Positions 17,624-31,360 of a stretch of DNA of 32,503 bases are shown here, in pieces (positions within the stretch are counted from its first letter, which is position 1; every line of letters starts with the position of its first letter). Below the pieces are notes generated by a model. It saw only the letters and a program-made list of their open reading frames with translations. It was not told the origin of the DNA and searched no databases. The stretch lies in assembly GCA_003165295.1 (NCBI GenBank), contig PLTC01000121.1:4746-37248 (forward strand), given 5' to 3'. The stretch comes from Rhodospirillales bacterium (GTDB lineage Bacteria; Pseudomonadota; Alphaproteobacteria; Azospirillales; Azospirillaceae). Position numbers and translations under genes: made by a program.

Positions 17624-17668
17624 GGGGCCTCAAGACAAGGGGCCTCAAGACAAGAGGCCTCAAGACAA
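17624..17668. repeat. 15-bp tandem repeat, three copies
   Basis: GGGGCCTCAAGACAA at 17624-17638 and 17639-17653, then one variant copy (GAGGCCTCAAGACAA) at 17654-17668, followed by a broken fourth. It starts 14 nt past the tamB stop, in the gap between convergent tamB and atpF. Function unknown. Confidence 0.9.
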
Positions 17669-17703
17669 GGGGCTGGTCATGGTGTCGGGGATCATCGGCG
17701 CCA

Positions 17704-17814
17704 CCGCATTCACCACCAGGATCACGAAGAACGCGAAGCAGGTCACCAAGAGAGAGAGAGAGAGACGTCTTCGTGACTGCTTTGTGCCCTTGGTGTCCTT
17801 CGTGGTGAATGCGG
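17704..17814. repeat. 111-bp imperfect inverted repeat (long hairpin, MITE-like)
   Basis: Ends are perfect 13-bp inverted repeats, CCGCATTCACCAC and GTGGTGAATGCGG. The arms continue imperfectly with CACGAAG / CTTCGTG blocks, around a centre with 17 nt of alternating AG (17749-17765). Minus-strand text such as ATTCACCACGAAGGACACC resembles a dispersed 'CACGAAGG' repeat that I know from many unrelated bacterial genomes. As RNA it would fold into a long hairpin and could end transcription from both convergent neighbours. No transposase is present. Confidence 0.8.
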
Positions 17815-17882: not shown

Positions 17883-18365
17883 TTAATTTAACAGGCCGCG
17901 CAGGCCGGTGAGGCTGCTGTCGACCAGCGGATCCGGCGCACCGGCTTCCACCCGCTCCTGAAACAGCCGGCGGCTGCTGGTGATGGCCAGGTCCACGGCA
18001 AAGTTGCGCACTTCGACCAGCGCCTGGGTCTCGGCCTGGGCAATACGATCGATGGCCTGAAGCTCCCGCCGCTTGACCGCGAGCTGGACATCTTCCTCGG
18101 CCTTGACCCGAATGCGCTCCGCCTCTTCGCGGGCGTGGGCGATGATCGCCTCGGCCTCCTGCTCGGCCTCCTGGTGGCGCTTCTGGCACTCCGCCAACAC
18201 CGCCTGGGCGTCCTCGCGCAGGCGCTGCGCCTGCTCCAGTTCCTGGCGGATGCGCTCTCCGCGCTGGTCCAGCGCCGTGGTGGCAAGGCTGCTGAGCTTT
18301 TTGTAGGCCAGACCGACAAAAATCAGGAAGGCGACCAAAACCCAGAAAGTTGCATCTTGCAGCAT
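17883..18365 (-). CDS. atpF: ATP synthase F0 subunit b
   Basis: A 160-residue F0 stator subunit. One N-terminal membrane segment (FWVLVAFLIFVGLAYKKL) is followed by an almost continuous charged coiled coil (RGERIRQELEQAQRLREDAQAVLAEC, EEAERIRVKAEEDVQLAVKRRE) and the alphaproteobacterial-type tail (AVDLAITSSRRLFQ). Length is normal for b. AAGGAG lies 8 nt before the ATG. The start overlaps a stop (TGATG) of a short upstream frame, so in its original setting it was coupled to a preceding gene. Normally a, c and b' genes come between atpI and this gene; here they are absent. Confidence 0.92.
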   Translation of the reverse strand: MLQDATFWVLVAFLIFVGLAYKKLSSLATTALDQRGERIRQELEQAQRLREDAQAVLAECQKRHQEAEQEAEAIIAHAREEAERIRVKAEEDVQLAVKRRELQAIDRIAQAETQALVEVRNFAVDLAITSSRRLFQERVEAGAPDPLVDSSLTGLRGLLN

Positions 18366-18439
18366 CAGTTATGCTCCTTGATCGCGGCCTCGAGCCGCGA
18401 AATGACTGCGTCGAAAATGCCCGTCAGGGCGGCGGCGGG
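18365..18439 (-). pseudogene. possible 3' remnant of the missing b' (or other F0) gene
   Basis: A 24-codon frame, bounded upstream by TAA, ends in ISRLEAAIKEHN and then a TGA that overlaps the atpF ATG by one base. Stop-start overlap of this kind marks real adjacent operon genes, and amphipathic Ala/Glu/Lys ends are common in b' subunits. There is no start codon or ribosome-binding site of its own. I read it as the tail of a lost upstream gene, most likely b', but it is too short to identify. Confidence 0.35.
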
Positions 18440-18792
18440 TTAATCCCTTTCACAGGCGGCGACGGCTGCCGGAGCCCGGATGCGGCGACAGCACTGACGG
18501 CCCGGTGGACGGTGCCGGCAGCCGCAGCGGCCCCCAGCAAAAACATCACCACCAGCCCCCACGGCCTGGTTCCCAGCCAGCGGTCGATCAGCAGACCGCC
18601 ACCAAGACCGACTATCATGGCCGCAACCATACCGGTGGCGATGCGGAACGCCGTCGCCTGCATGGCGCGTCCGCCATCTCCCTCCACCGGCGGTGCCGGC
18701 TCCCGGAGTCCGAACAGGATCGTGAACCACTGCCGGGCAGTCGTCTGATCCTTCGGCCCCCTGATTGCGGACGGACGGCCCTCGCTCGCCAA
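18424..18792 (-). CDS. atpI: AtpI-type F0F1 ATP synthase assembly protein
   Basis: A 122-residue protein with two membrane segments, matching AtpI/AtpZ-type proteins that head alphaproteobacterial F0 operons and assist c-ring assembly or Mg transport. The diagnostic part is RIATGMVAAMIVGLGGGLLIDRWLGTRPWGLVVMFLLGAAAAAG at residues about 49-92 (read in pieces: GGLLIDRWLGTRPWG is the family core). The TTG start at 18792 is convincing because GGGGGGAGG sits 7 or so bases upstream. The C-terminal tail after the second segment (SGLRQPSPPVKGINPPPP) is unlike AtpI and may be sequence read through a deletion joint. It is followed at once by atpF. Confidence 0.8.
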   Translation of the reverse strand: MASEGRPSAIRGPKDQTTARQWFTILFGLREPAPPVEGDGGRAMQATAFRIATGMVAAMIVGLGGGLLIDRWLGTRPWGLVVMFLLGAAAAAGTVHRAVSAVAASGLRQPSPPVKGINPPPP

Positions 18793-19125
18793 TTCCGGTA
18801 CCTCCCCCCGCTTGCGCCGGTTGTCACCCTACGATTCCCAAAGCGCACCGTCAAGACCGGGACGACAGGCCGGGACAACAGGCCGACCGGGCGGCGCAGT
18901 GCTGACCGGGCATGCCGACAATGGGGACGATGGAATGGGGACTCGTGGAAAGGGGCTTCCCTTGCTATACTTTGTCTTGTAGGAAAACGCGAACGCAGAA
19001 CGTCGTGTCGGCGAACCGGGAATCGCGACTCATCCTTTTTGCCCGAATCCGCGGGCGGAGGCAGTCGGGATTCCAGGTCGTCAAGAGTCGGCCGACGGTG
19101 GGGTGGTCGTTAAAATTCGGGGGAA
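18793..19125. other. intergenic region between atpI and minC
   Basis: About 330 nt between divergent operons. It holds the strong atpI ribosome-binding site at its left edge and a good extended -10 element for minCDE (listed separately). Several open frames cross it, but none looks like a protein. Confidence 0.6.
18963..18971 (+). promoter_or_regulatory. candidate extended -10 promoter for minCDE
   Basis: TGCTATACT forms an extended -10 (TGn plus TATACT, one mismatch to TATAAT) about 155 nt upstream of the minC start. No good -35 is seen at 16-18 nt, as is usual for extended -10 promoters. The nearby bases are clearly richer in A/T than the surroundings. Confidence 0.45.
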
Positions 19126-19866
19126 ATGCGGGTGACTGACGCCGAAACTGTCAGGGAAGGGGATGCCCCGTTTCAATTGCGGGGAGGGTCCTTCACCATG
19201 ATGGTGCTCAAAATACTCGACCCAGCGTCCGAGACGTTGTTCTCCCGTCTCAGCGAAAAGGTTCGTCTTGCGCCCAATTTTTTTCGCAACTCCGCGGTCG
19301 TGCTCGACCTTGAATGCCTGCCGGAGACTCAGGTTTGCGACTTTGGCGACATTAAGGCCAGGTTACGGGACTGCAATCTGATTGCGGTTGGGGTGCAGGG
19401 CGGCCATCGACTGCAACACGAGGCGGCGTTGCGCGCCGGCCTGCCGCTGGTGCCGAGTGGCCGGCCGACCCGAACCGACAACCGGCCGGCCCAGGCCGCA
19501 GGCCAGACGGTGCCGCCGCCGTCCCGCCCGACCCTGGTGGTCAGCGAGGTGGTGCGTTCGGGCCGGCAGATTTACGCGCCGGGGGGTGATCTGGTGGTGA
19601 CGGCGATGGTCAGCGCCGGTGCCGAGTTGCTGGCCGACGGTCACATCCACGTTTACGGCACACTCCGGGGCCGGGCGCTGGCCGGTCTTTCGGGCGACAC
19701 CACCGCGCGCATCTTCTGCCTCAGTCTCGAGGCGGAAATGGTTTCGATCGCCGGCCTCTACCGCGTCAACGAGGACTTCACACCGGAGATCGTGCGAAAG
19801 CCGGTCCAGATATGTCTCAAAGAGGGGTATCTTTGCCTCGAACCGTTCTTCCCCGTCGGTCGTTAA
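19126..19866 (+). CDS. minC: MinC, septum-site inhibitor
   Basis: A 246-residue inhibitor of FtsZ polymerisation at the cell poles. The N-terminal FtsZ-interacting domain (about 15-105) is divergent. A Pro/Arg linker (about 106-135) leads to the conserved C-terminal beta-helix that binds MinD and dimerises: VRSGRQIYAPGGDLVVTAMVSAGAELLADGHIHVYGTLRGRALAG, then ARIFCLSLEAEMVSIAGLY (both read in parts). The ATG at 19126 is very close to GGGGGAA; the in-frame GTG at 19132 has better spacing and may be the real start. First gene of minCDE. Confidence 0.93.
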   Translation: MRVTDAETVREGDAPFQLRGGSFTMMVLKILDPASETLFSRLSEKVRLAPNFFRNSAVVLDLECLPETQVCDFGDIKARLRDCNLIAVGVQGGHRLQHEAALRAGLPLVPSGRPTRTDNRPAQAAGQTVPPPSRPTLVVSEVVRSGRQIYAPGGDLVVTAMVSAGAELLADGHIHVYGTLRGRALAGLSGDTTARIFCLSLEAEMVSIAGLYRVNEDFTPEIVRKPVQICLKEGYLCLEPFFPVGR

Positions 19867-19889
19867 CCCCATTTCGCAGGAGAGGCTCC

Positions 19890-20705
19890 TTGGGCCAAAT
19901 CATCGTGATGACTTCCGGCAAGGGCGGGGTGGGCAAGACGACCTCGAGTGCCGCATTTGCCACCGGGTTTGCCTTGCGCGGCCACAAGACCGTGGTCATC
20001 GACTTTGATGTCGGACTGCGCAATCTGGATCTGGTGATGGGCTGCGAACGCCGCGTCGTGTTCGACTTTATCAACGTCATCAACGGCGAAGCCAAGCTCT
20101 ACCAGGCACTGATCAAGGACAAGCGGGTCGAGAACCTGTACATTCTGCCCACGTCCCAGACCCGGGACAAGGATGCCCTGACCAAGGAGGGCGTCGAAGC
20201 GGTAATGGACGAATTGCGTAAGGAATTCGAGTTTATCATCTGCGACTCACCCGCCGGTATCGAAAAGGGTGCGCTGATGGCGCTCTATTTCGCCGATCAG
20301 GCGGTGGTCGTGACCAATCCTGAGGTGTCTTCGGTGCGAGACAGCGACCGCATTCTGGGAATGCTGGCCGCCCGTTCGCGTCGGGCCGAGCTGGGGCAGC
20401 CGCCGGTGATCGAGCACCTGTTGCTGACCCGCTACGACCCGATTCGGGTCGAGCGTGGCGAGATGCTCAATGTCAATGATGTCCTGGAGATTCTGGCCAT
20501 TCCACTGTTGGGCGTGATCCCGGAAAGCCAGGCGGTGTTGCGCGCCTCCAACGTCGGCGTCCCGGTCATCCTTGATGACACCAGCAATGCCGGCATGGCC
20601 TATGCCGATGCCGTGGCGCGTTTTCTTGGAGAACAGCTCGAACACCGCTTCGTCAAGCCTGAAAAGCGGGGCCTGTTCTCCCGGCTCCTGGGGAGAACGG
20701 CATGA
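19890..20705 (+). CDS. minD: MinD, septum-site-determining ATPase
   Basis: A 271-residue ParA/MinD ATPase that carries MinC to the membrane and oscillates under MinE control. The deviant Walker A is SGKGGVGKTTSS at about residues 9-20, switch regions FDVGLRNLDL and CDSPAGIEKGAL follow, and the amphipathic membrane-targeting helix is at the end (KRGLFSRLLGR). Length is canonical (E. coli 270). A TTG start is chosen because AGGAGAGG lies 4 nt upstream and gives the family N-terminus (GQIIVMTSGKGG). The open frame runs 26 codons further upstream into minC. Its last 4 nt overlap minE. Confidence 0.97.
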   Translation: MGQIIVMTSGKGGVGKTTSSAAFATGFALRGHKTVVIDFDVGLRNLDLVMGCERRVVFDFINVINGEAKLYQALIKDKRVENLYILPTSQTRDKDALTKEGVEAVMDELRKEFEFIICDSPAGIEKGALMALYFADQAVVVTNPEVSSVRDSDRILGMLAARSRRAELGQPPVIEHLLLTRYDPIRVERGEMLNVNDVLEILAIPLLGVIPESQAVLRASNVGVPVILDDTSNAGMAYADAVARFLGEQLEHRFVKPEKRGLFSRLLGRTA

Positions 20706-21019
20706 GAATCTTTAATTTCTTTCGACCCGCCCAGCCGCCCAAAGTTGAATCCTCGGCCCACCATGCCAAGGAACGTCTTCAGATCGTCATGGCTCATGAA
20801 CGTGCGAGCCGCGACGGCCCCGACTTCCTGCCGTTGCTTCAGCAGGAGTTACTGGCGGTGATCGCCAAGTATGTGGACGTTGACCAGAACAAGGTCGAAG
20901 TCAAGCTCGACCGCAGTAACGAAATCTCGACCCTCGAGGTCAACATCGAGTTGCCTTCCCGGCGGCCCGAACCACGACGGCAGCGCGCGGCCCTCCAGGG
21001 CGCGGCCTCCACCCCCTGA
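20702..21019 (+). CDS. minE: MinE, topological specificity factor
   Basis: A 105-residue protein that stimulates MinD ATPase and so confines MinCD to the poles. The N-terminus is the amphipathic membrane helix (RIFNFFRP), followed by the MinD-contact helix (AKERLQIVMAHERA) and the dimeric beta domain (LLAVIAKYVDVDQNKVEVKL, ISTLEVNIELP). E. coli MinE is 88 residues; the extra Arg/Pro-rich tail (PEPRRQRAALQ) is not conserved. ATGA overlap with minD indicates coupling. Confidence 0.96.
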   Translation: MRIFNFFRPAQPPKVESSAHHAKERLQIVMAHERASRDGPDFLPLLQQELLAVIAKYVDVDQNKVEVKLDRSNEISTLEVNIELPSRRPEPRRQRAALQGAASTP

Positions 21020-21191
21020 ACCGTCAATCCTCTGAACCGCCCCCGGCCGACGCGGCAGCCCTTCCGGTTATGGGGCAGCTGGTCGCTCGAAGGGTTGCAT
21101 CTCCCGGCCGCTTCCGGCACCGTCTGTCATGCCACCGGCCGGTGACACTGTTCATCGGCATCCGGTGCCGCCAGCGGTGGGGGTACCGATC

Positions 21192-21653
21192 ATGTTGACC
21201 ATGGCCGTAAATGGCAGGACCTTAACGGTAACGATCCCGGGCGATACGCCGCTGCTGTGGCTGTTGCGGGAGCAACTTCAGTTAACCGGCACCAAGTTCG
21301 GTTGCGGTGCCGGGCTGTGTGGTGCCTGTACCGTGCTGATCAATGGCCACGCGGTTCGTGCCTGTTCGGTCCCGGTCTCGTCACTGGACGGCGCCGAGAT
21401 CGTCACCATCGAGGGTCTGGACCGCCGGACGGATGCGGTGGCGGCCCGGGTCATCGACGCCTGGATTGCCGAACAGGTTCCCCAATGCGGCTACTGCGCC
21501 CCCGGGATGATCATCGCCACCATCGCTCTGCTGCGCCGAACGCCGCAGCCCGGCGACCAGGAGATTGATGCTGCCATCACCAACCTGTGCCGCTGCGGCA
21601 CCTACCCGCGCATCCGCAGGGCCATTCATCGCGCGGCCTCGACCACGCCTTAA
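21192..21653 (+). CDS. [2Fe-2S] small subunit of an aldehyde/isoquinoline oxidoreductase-type molybdenum hydroxylase
   Basis: A 153-residue IorA/CoxS-type subunit that passes electrons from the molybdenum site. It has two cluster domains: plant-type [22 protein letters not shown], whose cysteines are in the first half, and the four-helix type with QCGYCAPGM and [14 protein letters not shown] in the second half. The in-frame ATG at 21192 gives the family N-terminus ([11 protein letters not shown]); the upstream extension lacks similarity. It has no signal peptide, so it would be exported with its Tat-carrying partner encoded 60 nt downstream. Substrate unknown. Confidence 0.93.
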
Positions 21654-21713
21654 CAGGGTAGCGGTCGGAATGCCTGAGGGTGTCCCCGGCCGCCGGATCC
21701 GGGGCCGCCCGCC

Positions 21714-23894
21714 ATGTCGCCGTTGATCACACTCAGCCGCCGCGCCGTCCTTAAGGGAACCGGCGCCCTGATTCTCGGCTTCCAACTGCCCTTCCTGCCA
21801 CTGCCGCCCGCGGTCGCCGGGTCGACTCCGATGCCGGTCAATGCCTGGCTCAGGATTTCCGCGGCTGGCGTTACCATTCTGGTGGCGAAGGCCGAAATGG
21901 GTCAGGGTGTGTTCACAGCCCTGCCCATGCTGGTGGCCGAGGAGCTTGACGTGGACTGGCAGACGGTACGGGCCGGGCCGGCGCCGTCGGACGCCGGCAC
22001 CGCCGGGCTGGTCCCGGGCGGCATGCACACCGGAGGCAGCACCAGCGTCTCTGCTTCGTTTCTGCCGCTGCGTCGGGCCGGAGCCGCGGCCAGACTGATG
22101 CTGATGGCGGCCGCGGCGCGCCTCTGGCGGGTTCCCATCACCGAACTGACCACGGCGAACGGCGCGGTCAGCCACGCCGCCACCGATCGGCGCGCGGGTT
22201 ACGGTGCGCTGGCCGGACTCGCGGCCCGGCAGCCGGTGCCACCCGATCCGCCGCTGCGCGATCCGGCGACCTGGACACTTATCGGCCGGTCGCTGCCCCG
22301 CCCCGACACCCCGGCCAAGGTTACCGGGCTGGCCCGCTTCGGGCTCGATATCCGCCTGTCCGACCTGCTGTACGCCGCGATCCGCCACTGCCCGGTGCTG
22401 GGCGGGACCCTTGCCAAGATCGACGCCGCGGCGCTCAAGGACAAGAGTACGGCAACCGGCTATCGGGCGGGTATCGTCGCAGTGGTATCGCTGCCCGACG
22501 CGGTGGCGGTGGTTGCCGAGGGCTGGTGGCAGGCCCAAAGCGCGCTGGCCGAGGTTGCCGTCTCGTGGAACGAAGGGGCCAATGCCGGGCTGGCCAGCAC
22601 CACCCTTGACCCGACCCTGAGCAAGGCCCTCGACCCCGGCAACCCCCGGGCCATCGCGATTGCGGCCAGCCGGGGCGATATCGACCGCGCCATGGCCGGC
22701 GCCGTGCGGGTGGTGGAGTCGGTCTATCGCCTGCCGTTCCTGGCCCACGCGCCGTTGGAGCCGATGAACGCCACCGCCAGCGTCACGGCGACCCGGTGCG
22801 AATTATGGCTGCCGACTCAGGACCAGGAGCGTTACCTCACGGTGCTGCCGCCGTTGCTGGGGCTCAAGCCCGACCAGATCGCGATCCATACCACGTTCCT
22901 GGGTGGCAGCTTCGGGCGGCGGCTCGAGTGCGATTTCGGAGTCGAAGCGGCGCTGCTGTCCCGGGCCGTGGGCCGGCCGGTCCAGGTGATCTGGTCGCGG
23001 GAAGAGGACATCCGCCATGACTTCTACCGCCCGGCCAGCGTCAGCCGGATCACCGTCGGCCTGGACGGCGCCAACCGCCCGGTGGGCTGGCGTCACCGCG
23101 TCGTCGCGCCCTCAATCCTGGCCCGGGTACGCCCGATGGCGCTCAAGGACGGCCTGGACGGCGCCGCGGTGGCGGGCATCGCGGACCAGCCCTACGCCCT
23201 GCCGGCCCTCTGTGTGGACTATGTCCGGCAGGATACCGGCGTGCCGGTGGGCTTCTGGCGCTCGGTCGGCCACGGTAACAACGCCTTTTCGGTGGAGAGC
23301 ATGATCGACGAGGTGGCGGCGGCCATCGACCGCGATCCTTGCGTGCTCCGACGGGAGTTGCTCGCGGGATCGCCCCGGGCGCTGCGGGTCCTCGACCTGG
23401 CCACCGACCAGGCCGGCTGGCCCCGGCCGCCGGCCCCGGTGGCCGGCGGTCGACGAGGCCGCGGCCTCGCGCTGCACCAGGCCTTTGGCAGCGTGGTGGC
23501 CGAAGTGGCCGAGGTCACCGTGTCCGACGATGGCCGGCTTCGGGTCGACCGGGTGGTCGCGGCCATTGATTGCGGCGTCGCCATCAATCCTGATCTGATC
23601 CGCGCGCAACTCGAGGGCGGCATCCTGTTCGGGCTCTCGGCCGCGCTCACCGGTAAGATCACCATCGACAAGGGGCGCGTGGTCCAAAGCAACTTCCATG
23701 ACGCCCCGGTGCTGACCCTGCGCGATGCTCCGGTCATTGAGGTCCACATTGTCGACAGCGCGGAACCGCCCGGCGGCGTCGGCGAAGCCGGAACCCCGCC
23801 CATCGCCCCGGCCCTGACCAATGCCATCTTTGCCGCCACCGGACGGCGTCTGCGGTCGCTGCCGGTGGGCGATTACGATCTGGCGAGCGGCTGA
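21714..23894 (+). CDS. molybdopterin-binding large subunit, IorB-type, Tat-exported
   Basis: A 726-residue catalytic subunit of the xanthine oxidase family, IorB-like. It starts with a Tat signal (LSRRAVLKGTGALILGF), unlike cytoplasmic xanthine dehydrogenases, so the folded complex should work in the periplasm. Family features in order: AKAEMGQGVFTALPMLVAEEL, GRSLPRPDTPAKVTG, FLAHAPLEPMNATA, GGSFGRR, WSREEDIRHDFYRP, FWRSVGHGNNAFSVESMIDE, VDRVVAAIDCGVAINPD, and the active-site Glu 691 in PPGGVGEAGTPP. Partner is the [2Fe-2S] protein just upstream. No cytochrome c subunit, XdhC-type chaperone or MCD-cofactor gene is adjacent. Aldehyde, isoquinoline and other N-heterocycle substrates all fit the family; the sequence does not decide. 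Confidence 0.92.
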   Translation: MSPLITLSRRAVLKGTGALILGFQLPFLPLPPAVAGSTPMPVNAWLRISAAGVTILVAKAEMGQGVFTALPMLVAEELDVDWQTVRAGPAPSDAGTAGLVPGGMHTGGSTSVSASFLPLRRAGAAARLMLMAAAARLWRVPITELTTANGAVSHAATDRRAGYGALAGLAARQPVPPDPPLRDPATWTLIGRSLPRPDTPAKVTGLARFGLDIRLSDLLYAAIRHCPVLGGTLAKIDAAALKDKSTATGYRAGIVAVVSLPDAVAVVAEGWWQAQSALAEVAVSWNEGANAGLASTTLDPTLSKALDPGNPRAIAIAASRGDIDRAMAGAVRVVESVYRLPFLAHAPLEPMNATASVTATRCELWLPTQDQERYLTVLPPLLGLKPDQIAIHTTFLGGSFGRRLECDFGVEAALLSRAVGRPVQVIWSREEDIRHDFYRPASVSRITVGLDGANRPVGWRHRVVAPSILARVRPMALKDGLDGAAVAGIADQPYALPALCVDYVRQDTGVPVGFWRSVGHGNNAFSVESMIDEVAAAIDRDPCVLRRELLAGSPRALRVLDLATDQAGWPRPPAPVAGGRRGRGLALHQAFGSVVAEVAEVTVSDDGRLRVDRVVAAIDCGVAINPDLIRAQLEGGILFGLSAALTGKITIDKGRVVQSNFHDAPVLTLRDAPVIEVHIVDSAEPPGGVGEAGTPPIAPALTNAIFAATGRRLRSLPVGDYDLASG

Positions 23895-28528: not shown

Positions 28529-31360
28529 GTGCCGGGCAGCAACGTCGTCATCGTCGAATCGCCCGCCAAGGCCAAGACGATCAACAAGTACCTGGGGCGC
28601 GACTATGTCGTGCGGGCCTCGATGGGACACGTGCGCGACCTGCCGACCAAGAAGATCGGCGTGGACCTGGAACACGGTTTCCAGCCCACGTACGAACCGC
28701 TGGCCAGCCGCAAGAAAGTGCTGGCCGAACTCAAGAAATATGCCCGCACCGCGGGCGAGGTCTACCTGGCAACCGACTTGGACCGCGAGGGCGAGGCCAT
28801 CGCCTGGCACCTGGCCGAGAGCCTGGGCGCCCGGAAGAACCAGCGCGTCTACCGCGTCATCTTCAACGAGATCACCAAGAGCGCCATCCAGGCGGCCTTC
28901 GAGCATCCGCGCGAAATCGACATGAACAAGGTCAACGCACAGCAGGCCCGGCGCATCCTGGACCGCATTGTGGGCTACCAGGTTTCGCCGCTGCTATGGC
29001 GGAAGGTGGCGACCGGGCTGTCGGCGGGGCGCGTGCAGTCGGTCGCCGTGCGGCTGATCGTCGAGCGCGAGCGGGAGATCGAGGCCTTCCCCCCCGAGGA
29101 GTATTGGAAGATCGGCTCGATTTTCACTTCCGACATTTCGGGTGCGCCCGCGGCGGCCGAGCAATGGGCCAAGTTTCTGGAGCAGACCGACCCGATGGGC
29201 AATCCGCCCACGCTCCAGGCCCAACAGGAGTTTCTGGGCGGGCACAACGCGTTCCGGGCCGAACTGGCCCAGTGGCAGGGACAGAAATTCAACGCCGCCG
29301 ATGCCGACACCGCCGTCGCCATCGTCAAGGCCCTGGGCCTGGCCGTGCGGGAAGTCCGCCGCCAGGAAGACCCCAAGGGCAAAGGTCCGGCCAGGAACCT
29401 TGTTACGGTCGTCGGACAACTGGGCGGGCAGGGGCCCGTGCCGAAGTTCACCGTCCGCGACATTTCCCAGCGAGAAAGCCGTTCGCGCCCGCCAGGCCCA
29501 TTCACGACGGCCGCCCTTCAGCAGGCCGCCAGTGTGCAACTGCGGTTCGGCGCGTCGCGGACCATGCGGATCGCCCAGCAGCTTTACGAAGGCGTGGACG
29601 TGCCCGGCGAGGGCAGCGTCGGCCTGATTACTTACATGCGAACCGACAGCCTGAACCTCTCCAACGAGGCCGTGGGCCAGATTCGCGGCATGATCGGCCA
29701 GCAGTTCGGCCAGGCGTATCTGCCGGACTCGCCCAACCGCTTCGCCTCGGGCGAGCGGGCGCAGGAAGCACACGAAGCCATTCGCCCCTCGGACGTCCGC
29801 CGCACTCCGCGCGACCTGATGAGGGCGCTGAGCGACGAGCAGTACAAGCTCTACGACCTGATCTGGAAGCGCACCGTCGCCTGCCAGATGACCCCGGCCG
29901 TCTGGAAAGTCACCGAAGCGGATATCGTGTGTGGCACGCCCGTACGGGCCGTGTCTTCTCGTAGCACGGGCGTCTCGCCCGTGAGTCCCATGGGCGTCCC
30001 GCCCATGTCTTCGCCGTTGAATTCCGATGAAGAAAAAGAAACGGCACACGGGCAAGATGCCCGTGAGACTCATGGGCAGGATGCCCATGCTACGGGCCAT
30101 GCCACAGCCGTCTTCAAGGCCATGGGTCGGCAACTGGCGTTCGACGGGTTCCTCCGCGTCACGGGGCTGCCGCGAACCGGCGACCAACTCCTGCCGGAAC
30201 TGGCCAAGGATCAGCCGGTCGCGCCGCTGGCCATCTCCCCCACCCAGCACTTTACCCAGCCGCCGCCCAGGTACACCGAGGCCGGGCTGGTCAAGGCCCT
30301 GGAGGCCGACAACATCGGCCGGCCCAGCACCTACGCCACCATCATCACCACCATCCAGGACCGCCAGTACGTTGAGATGATCGAACGCTCGTTCCGGCCG
30401 ACCGACCTGGGCCTGGCCGTCACCGACAAGCTCGTCAAGCACTTCCCCAAGGAATTCGACGTGCGGTTCACCGCCCACATGGAAGACCAGCTCGACCAGA
30501 TCGAGGAGGCCCACGCCGACTGGGTGGCCGTGCTCCAGGAGTTCTACGGGCCTTTCAGCGAAAACCTCAAGAAGGCCGGCGAGGAAATGACCCACGCCAA
30601 GGCCGAGACCACGCCCAGCGAGTACAAGTGCGAGACCTGCGGCAAGCCGATGGTGTATCGCTTCAGCAAGAACGGCCGCTACCTCGCCTGCACCGGCTAC
30701 CCCGACTGCAAAAGCACGCATCCGGTGGACCGCGAGGGCAAGAAGGTCGCCCGCGTCGAGGTGGACGTGGCCTGCCCGTTGTGCGGCAAAAAGATGATCC
30801 TTCGCCGCAGCCGGTTCGGGGAGTTCCTGAGCTGCTCGGGCTACCCCGAATGCACCGGCAGCCTCAAGCTGGACCGCGCGGGCAATGTGAAACCGCCCTC
30901 GCCTCCGCCACTGGCGGTGGACGTGACGTGCCCCAAGTGCCAGTCGAAACTTTATCTCCGGCGGTCCAAACGCGGACCGTGGCTGGGCTGCTCGAAGTAC
31001 CCCAAGTGCCGAGGCCGCCTGGCCTGGTCGGCCTTGCCCGAGGAGCAGCAGAAGGATCTCACGCGCCGCCTCGAAGAGCACGAGCAGGCCCATCCGATGC
31101 CGGAACTCAAGAAGGCCGACGGCACGCTCATCGTCGGGGCGATGAACGCCGCAACCGGCCAAGTCAGCGACAAGCCCGCCGGCGCCCGCGAGGCCGGAGT
31201 CAACTGCCCAAAATGCGGAAAACCCATGGTCATCCGCGCCGGAAAACGGGGCGATTTCCTCGCGTGCAGCGGCTACCCCAAGTGCCGAAACGCCCTGAAC
31301 CTCGACAGCCTGCCCGATCTCCAGAAACAGCAGGACGAGAGCGCGACCCCCAAGCCGTAG
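28529..31360 (+). CDS. topA: DNA topoisomerase I, planctomycete-like, with in-frame repeat insertion
   Basis: A 943-residue type IA topoisomerase that relaxes negative supercoils. The Toprim domain starts [19 protein letters not shown] and holds [12 protein letters not shown]; the catalytic Tyr 369 is in [28 protein letters not shown] is also canonical. Four C-terminal zinc ribbons start near residues 701, 750, 800 and 892 ([32 protein letters not shown]). After residue 25 or so the text ([22 protein letters not shown], in parts) follows the planctomycete rather than the alphaproteobacterial pattern (typically DLPPKDGSV). An unusual linker at about 470-522 is encoded by an inverted-repeat element. 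The GTG start follows two GGGAGG boxes. Function is sure; origin is the open question. Confidence 0.96.
29960..30093. repeat. in-frame inverted-repeat element inside topA
   Basis: Left arm (29960-30008) and the reverse complement of the right arm (30044-30093) both read CGTAGCA, then two small palindromes built on CACGGGC-GCCCGTG and CATGGGC-GCCCATG, in swapped order. The encoded text includes [14 protein letters not shown] and HGQDAHATG, word patterns I know from translated dispersed repeats in planctomycete and related genomes. It keeps the frame and lies between conserved topoisomerase segments. Confidence 0.85.

Follow-up and report, generated by a model that had tools for sequence, protein, structure and literature searches.

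The stretch of DNA analysed here (the window; 32,503 nt, bases 4746-37248 of contig C199) very probably represents a late stage in the dismantling of an ancestral F0 operon beside minCDE, the missing parts of the proton motor being encoded elsewhere in the genome. The elements on which this reading draws, namely the relic of a b' gene, the synteny series among related genomes and the gene content of those genomes, are apparent in the sequences themselves, and the atpF gene left in the window is best read as encoding the b subunit for what would be a replaced F0 motor. The subunits of F0 are generally regarded as closely matched to each other, and few bacterial operons are better conserved than theirs.

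Genomes and searches

Five genomes of the genus, a group of freshwater relatives of Azospirillum, were compared, that of the window and four congeneric ones (G021, G016, G005 and G025). All are draft metagenome-assembled genomes (MAGs), the relatives being uncultured Rhodospirillales MAGs, and the family, Azospirillaceae, includes Niveispirillum irakense. The window's genome measures 4.2 Mb in 308 contigs (91% complete, 2.9% contaminated); G005 and G025 are 99 and 98% complete, respectively. AtpF was recognised by the ATP-synt_B profile, an N-terminal membrane helix and a long stalk helix, all of which the window's protein has. To assess the b' relic, a profile was built from the C-termini of the family's b' proteins, anchored at the stop codon, and used to rank 3,809 T(G/A)ATG sites.

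The atpI-atpF locus in the window

As the first-pass annotation of this DNA had proposed, atpI is followed by atpF with 58 nt between them (18366-18423), both genes being confirmed by Pfam (Table 1), and a, c and b' are missing from the locus, none of them lying on either side of atpF in the window; a complete alphaproteobacterial F0 operon, that is, a, c, b' and b in one cluster, is not present there. The atpF product scores 87.1 bits against PF00430 (cut-off 28) but does not reach the NCBIfam equivalog cut-offs, and a genome search with the same profile found it to be the sole canonical-type b gene of its genome. The atpI product passes PF09527, a profile over two membrane helices, with 47.5 bits (cut-off 26.6), and is 40% identical to that of G021 over 106 aligned residues. 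The alignment reaches the tail, which had been described as unlike the family; it aligns to the ends of the genus's atpI proteins and has its own stop. Upstream of the two genes, the elements TTGACG and TAGGGT, 17 nt apart and conserved in the three closest genomes, may form their promoter; a consensus promoter scan gave no call for this pair.

Table 1. Features at the F0 locus of the window, with the basis for each
Feature	Position	Strand	Basis
atpF, F0 subunit b, 160 aa	17883..18365	minus	Pfam ATP-synt_B PF00430, E 1.3e-24, residues 7-133
24-codon open frame PAAALTGIFDAVISRLEAAIKEHN, ending ISRLEAAIKEHN, TGATG overlap with atpF	18365..18439	minus	last 11-15 codons read as b' relic
AAGGAG, predicted atpF ribosome-binding site inside relic, -14 to -9	18374..18379	minus	position as in most Azospirillaceae b'-b junctions listed
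atpI, ancestral (X) type, TTG start, complete with own stop	18424..18792	minus	Pfam ATPase_gene1 PF09527, E 1.9e-12
Putative promoter of atpI-atpF, TTGACG, 17 nt, TAGGGT	18826..18854	minus	alignment; conserved in G005 and G025
minC, divergent neighbour anchoring the locus	19126..19866	plus	Pfam MinC_C and MinC_N; synteny in 5/5 genus genomes
minD and minE	19812..21019	plus	open reading frames and synteny; names recognised from translations

Several other features of the window deserve mention. Between minC and the F0 remnant, upstream of minC, a block of about 43 nt (18938-18982; CCTACAAGACAAAGTATAGCAAGGGAAGCCCCTTTCCACGAGT) is identical in three species and contains TATACT on the minC strand and an inverted repeat. 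On the other side, between a TamB-like gene and atpF, there are tandem units of 12-15 nt (CCTCAAGACAAGGGG) and a run of GA dinucleotides (17627-17766). After minE lies a two-gene molybdenum hydroxylase (21129-23894), recognised from its translation as of the isoquinoline-oxidoreductase type and made up of a small iron-sulfur and a large subunit. At 29965-30089 a repetitive palindromic element is inserted in frame into the topoisomerase I gene topA (28529-31360, plus strand); its two 43-nt copies, 72% alike, are part of the coding sequence.

Stages of loss across the genus

In all five genus genomes minCDE is divergent from the F0 genes. The locus is intact in G021 (c-atpI-a-b'-b); it reads c-[32 codons of b']-b in G016, atpI-[b' tail]-b in the window and [b' tail]-b only in G005 and G025. 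From the atpI stop to the atpF start there are 1,561 nt in G021 as against 58 in the window, and relative to G021 about 1.5 kb, comprising a and b', is evidently missing from the latter. The order that had been assumed for the operon, atpI-a-c-b'-b, is indeed the family's usual one but not that of this genus: c lies between a and b' in the other Azospirillaceae checked, but this genus has it upstream of atpI, as do G008 and G010, which represent two further genera of the family. Because c is upstream of atpI in the genus, its loss is separate from the deletion of a and b', so that the internal deletion of about 1.5-2 kb first proposed is upheld at about 1.5 kb, for a and most of b', but does not account for c.

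In the tree of a, the ancestral (X) set forms a clade inside the family (100/98), and a divergent set, described below, forms a clade of its own (100/100). Inside X, in the rooted tree, G016 groups with G021 (100/99). As G016 thus sides with the genome whose locus is intact, it and the window's lineage lost a and b' from the old site independently.

Ancestral-type genes also lie at other sites, as a-b'-c on contig C255 of the window's genome and as atpI-a-b' on contig C205 of G016. It might be supposed that atpI-a-b' was transposed to a new site in one piece, and G016, where C205 carries atpI-a-b' and the old site c-[b' tail]-b, could be taken that way. Yet the ectopic b' runs through to the protein's C-terminus although this same end is also retained at the old site, an overlap which fits copying followed by deletion, and C255 and C205 showed no flanking sequence in common; transposition is accordingly unlikely. 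That the ectopic b' genes also reach their C-termini suggests copying rather than cutting.

The b' relic and the b'-b junction

The first-pass annotation had taken the 24-codon frame before atpF for the end of a lost gene, and comparison with the C-termini of relatives' b' proteins bears this out: the tail is homologous to them, in the same frame and at the same place, and it recurs in the two sister genomes, as a longer relic in G016 and as the end of the intact b' in G021. In G005 and G025 the same tail precedes atpF (IVARLEAAIKERN and IVSRLDAVIKEHD) with the same TGATG, the ends in the window and these two sisters being RLEAAIKEHN, RLEAAIKERN and RLDAVIKEHD. The relic in G016 ends GAAVRAAIKECG, and its 32-codon stretch is 53% identical to the C-terminus of intact b'; the intact b' of G021 ends AEAVKAVIKERV and is followed by the same TGATG and atpF. 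Against the anchored b' profile, the window's tail ranked 27th of the 3,809 T(G/A)ATG sites, and the sites ranked higher are nearly all true b'-b junctions. By itself the tail is weak in the family profile (-7.8 bits), and it is convincing mainly through its relatives. Taken together, these comparisons indicate that the short frame is a real remnant of a b' gene.

The codons for IKE in the tail contain the AAGGAG at -14 to -9 from atpF. Since AAGGAG itself encodes IKE, part of the likeness to b' could be forced, and only 4-5 of the 11 final residues match b', so one could instead see in the tail a leader peptide newly selected around the ribosome-binding site. We consider this very improbable, as G016 has 32 clear b' codons at the same place, and position, frame and TGATG all agree with the intact G021. 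A special RNA hairpin in the relic was also considered but is not put forward: stems do occur immediately ahead of the ribosome-binding site, both in the window and in G016, but the energies in intact family members are similar.

It had been left undecided whether the deletion occurred in the genome or in the assembly. The window comes from a draft MAG in 308 contigs with scaffold gaps elsewhere, and a, c and b' might in principle have been at the locus and been lost when it was assembled. However, two separately assembled MAGs share the arrangement minCDE-[b' tail]-atpF with neither a nor b', G016 shows a different stage of loss, and at the window's junction the atpI stop is intact and the sequence free of gaps. 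An assembly collapse is therefore highly implausible, and the evidence of the independent sisters places the deletion in the genome.

F0 genes elsewhere in the genomes

The first-pass annotation had raised the possibility that the cell lacks a and c altogether, and called for a genome-wide search for a, c and b'. That search yielded three genes for a and three for c, along with four clear b-type genes, in the window's genome, including two canonical-type sets; this refutes the possibility, and the genome as a whole holds a, c, b' and b genes for a complete F0. The ectopic set on C255 is of the ancestral type, its a sharing 76-78% identity with the a proteins of that type in G016 and G021. A divergent set on contig C36 runs c-atpI-a-b' and has no b; its a is 78-93% identical to those of sets in G016, G005 and G025 and 57-60% identical to the ancestral type. 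Both sets retain the essential arginine region (LSVRLFAN.MAGH) as well as the glutamate of c. The C255 contig, at 8.2 kb, may be a binning error, with a close relative as its true source.

The third a/c/b set, on contig C240, was assigned to an N-ATPase. N-ATPases are alternate F1F0 enzymes with atpR and no delta, and are expected to have their own F1 and F0. The assignment here is based on the shortness of the set's a, on its c and on the presence in the genome of a second gamma gene, which is divergent; this set is not the source of canonical a, c and b'. A similar short sequence (ASLRVQG in one frame) stands beside N gaps in both C240 (L012) and C36 (L014), and also where the N-ATPase alpha gene is broken; the interruptions of the assembly at these points may stem from a dispersed repeat.

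Each genome has one delta/OSCP and one canonical gamma gene, the two genes by which F1 was counted. Although a, c and b' are absent at the locus, a loss of function that left the cell with no proton-driven ATP synthase is hardly credible, given that canonical-type a/b'/c sets occur at two other sites, that one F1 is present, and that the C255 and C36 genes are all open with key residues conserved.

G005 and G025 both carry the divergent set and an N-ATPase set, together with the minC-linked b and a single canonical F1; genome searches found no ancestral-type a, c, b' or atpI in either. With the ancestral set absent, the divergent a, c and b' of these two species must use the minC-linked b, barring assembly omission. 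A paralogue is thus predicted to have taken the place of their F0 motor, with b and F1 retained, and their gene content implies that a functional F1F0 can be built from divergent a, c and b' with a window-type b. We infer that the shared b assembles with the divergent subunits.

Two complete canonical-type sets (a, b' and c), one b and one F1 are found in G016 as in the window's organism. G016 has five canonical-type c-subunit genes (L180, L182 and L183; C186, C30 and C118), two of which (C186:16386 and C118:24336) depart from the GxGxGxG motif; this could mean other ring sizes.

Discussion

The window's locus has homologues of its atpI and atpF in the alphaproteobacterial operon atpI-atpB-atpE-b'-atpF, as found in Niveispirillum irakense (L051) and other Azospirillaceae, and shares with it the b'-b TGATG junction and a ribosome-binding site inside the b' tail; it differs in the genus's placement of c upstream of atpI and in having no c, a or b'. 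Split and duplicated F0F1 loci have been surveyed in complete genomes (Koumandou and Kossida, 2014; PMC4154653), among them an ectopic second F0 set in Desulfococcus oleovorans (PMC4154653). Our case resembles these in that subunits are split between loci and a full ectopic F0 duplicate exists, but here the second F0 set has no b, the stages form a series within one genus with a b' relic, and in two species the second set appears to have displaced the original a, c and b', leaving the old b alone. We found no report of such a staged series, or of a lone b beside a motor replaced by a paralogue, in the open-access literature searched. F0 splits and ectopic duplications are already known; the staged series with its stranded b is a variant of them.

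As to the divergent set, a tree with both a types as one clade is not the best, but it is not rejected (p-AU 0.118), so its source may be a within-lineage duplication followed by a long branch. A recent transfer from another order was sought among 385 genomes of the class, in which the best a outside the genus (62%) belongs to the same family, and for the divergent c, 82 genomes of the order from outside the genus yielded no close relative. A second F0 set, c-atpI-a-b'-b, is also present in two other genera of the family (L228 on G010:C219 and L230 on G008:C334), with b frames of about 104-122 aa that are perhaps too short to reach F1. The tree shows these extra sets to be separate duplications.

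We propose that the genus began with c-atpI-a-b'-b beside minCDE, that a and b', with or without atpI, were copied to other sites, and that the divergent set arrived by an old duplication or transfer. Redundant genes at the old site would then have been deleted down to what atpF needs, a promoter and a ribosome-binding site. In the window's lineage c, a and b' would have gone, leaving atpI and b, and the last codons of b' may have been kept for the ribosome-binding site of atpF and the TGATG junction. With AAGGAG and the junction both inside the b' tail, there is a simple reason why independent deletions would end there. The window's atpF would now supply the peripheral-stalk b to the C36 and/or C255 sets, with F1 from contig C238.

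The two canonical-type sets of the window's organism and G016 differ at about 40% of a residues and have different c subunits. It is conceivable, if doubtful, that these organisms vary which set they express and so fit their ATP synthases with one motor or the other, the two perhaps differing in their c-rings.

In summary, one genus shows all stages of the disassembly of an F0 operon, in the course of which paralogous a, c and b' appear to have taken over from the original motor, with the inherited b and F1 still in place. The series suggests that a junction needed for translation start as well as for coding restricts the possible end-points of deletions, and it offers a natural test of the exchangeability of the ATP synthase proton motor.
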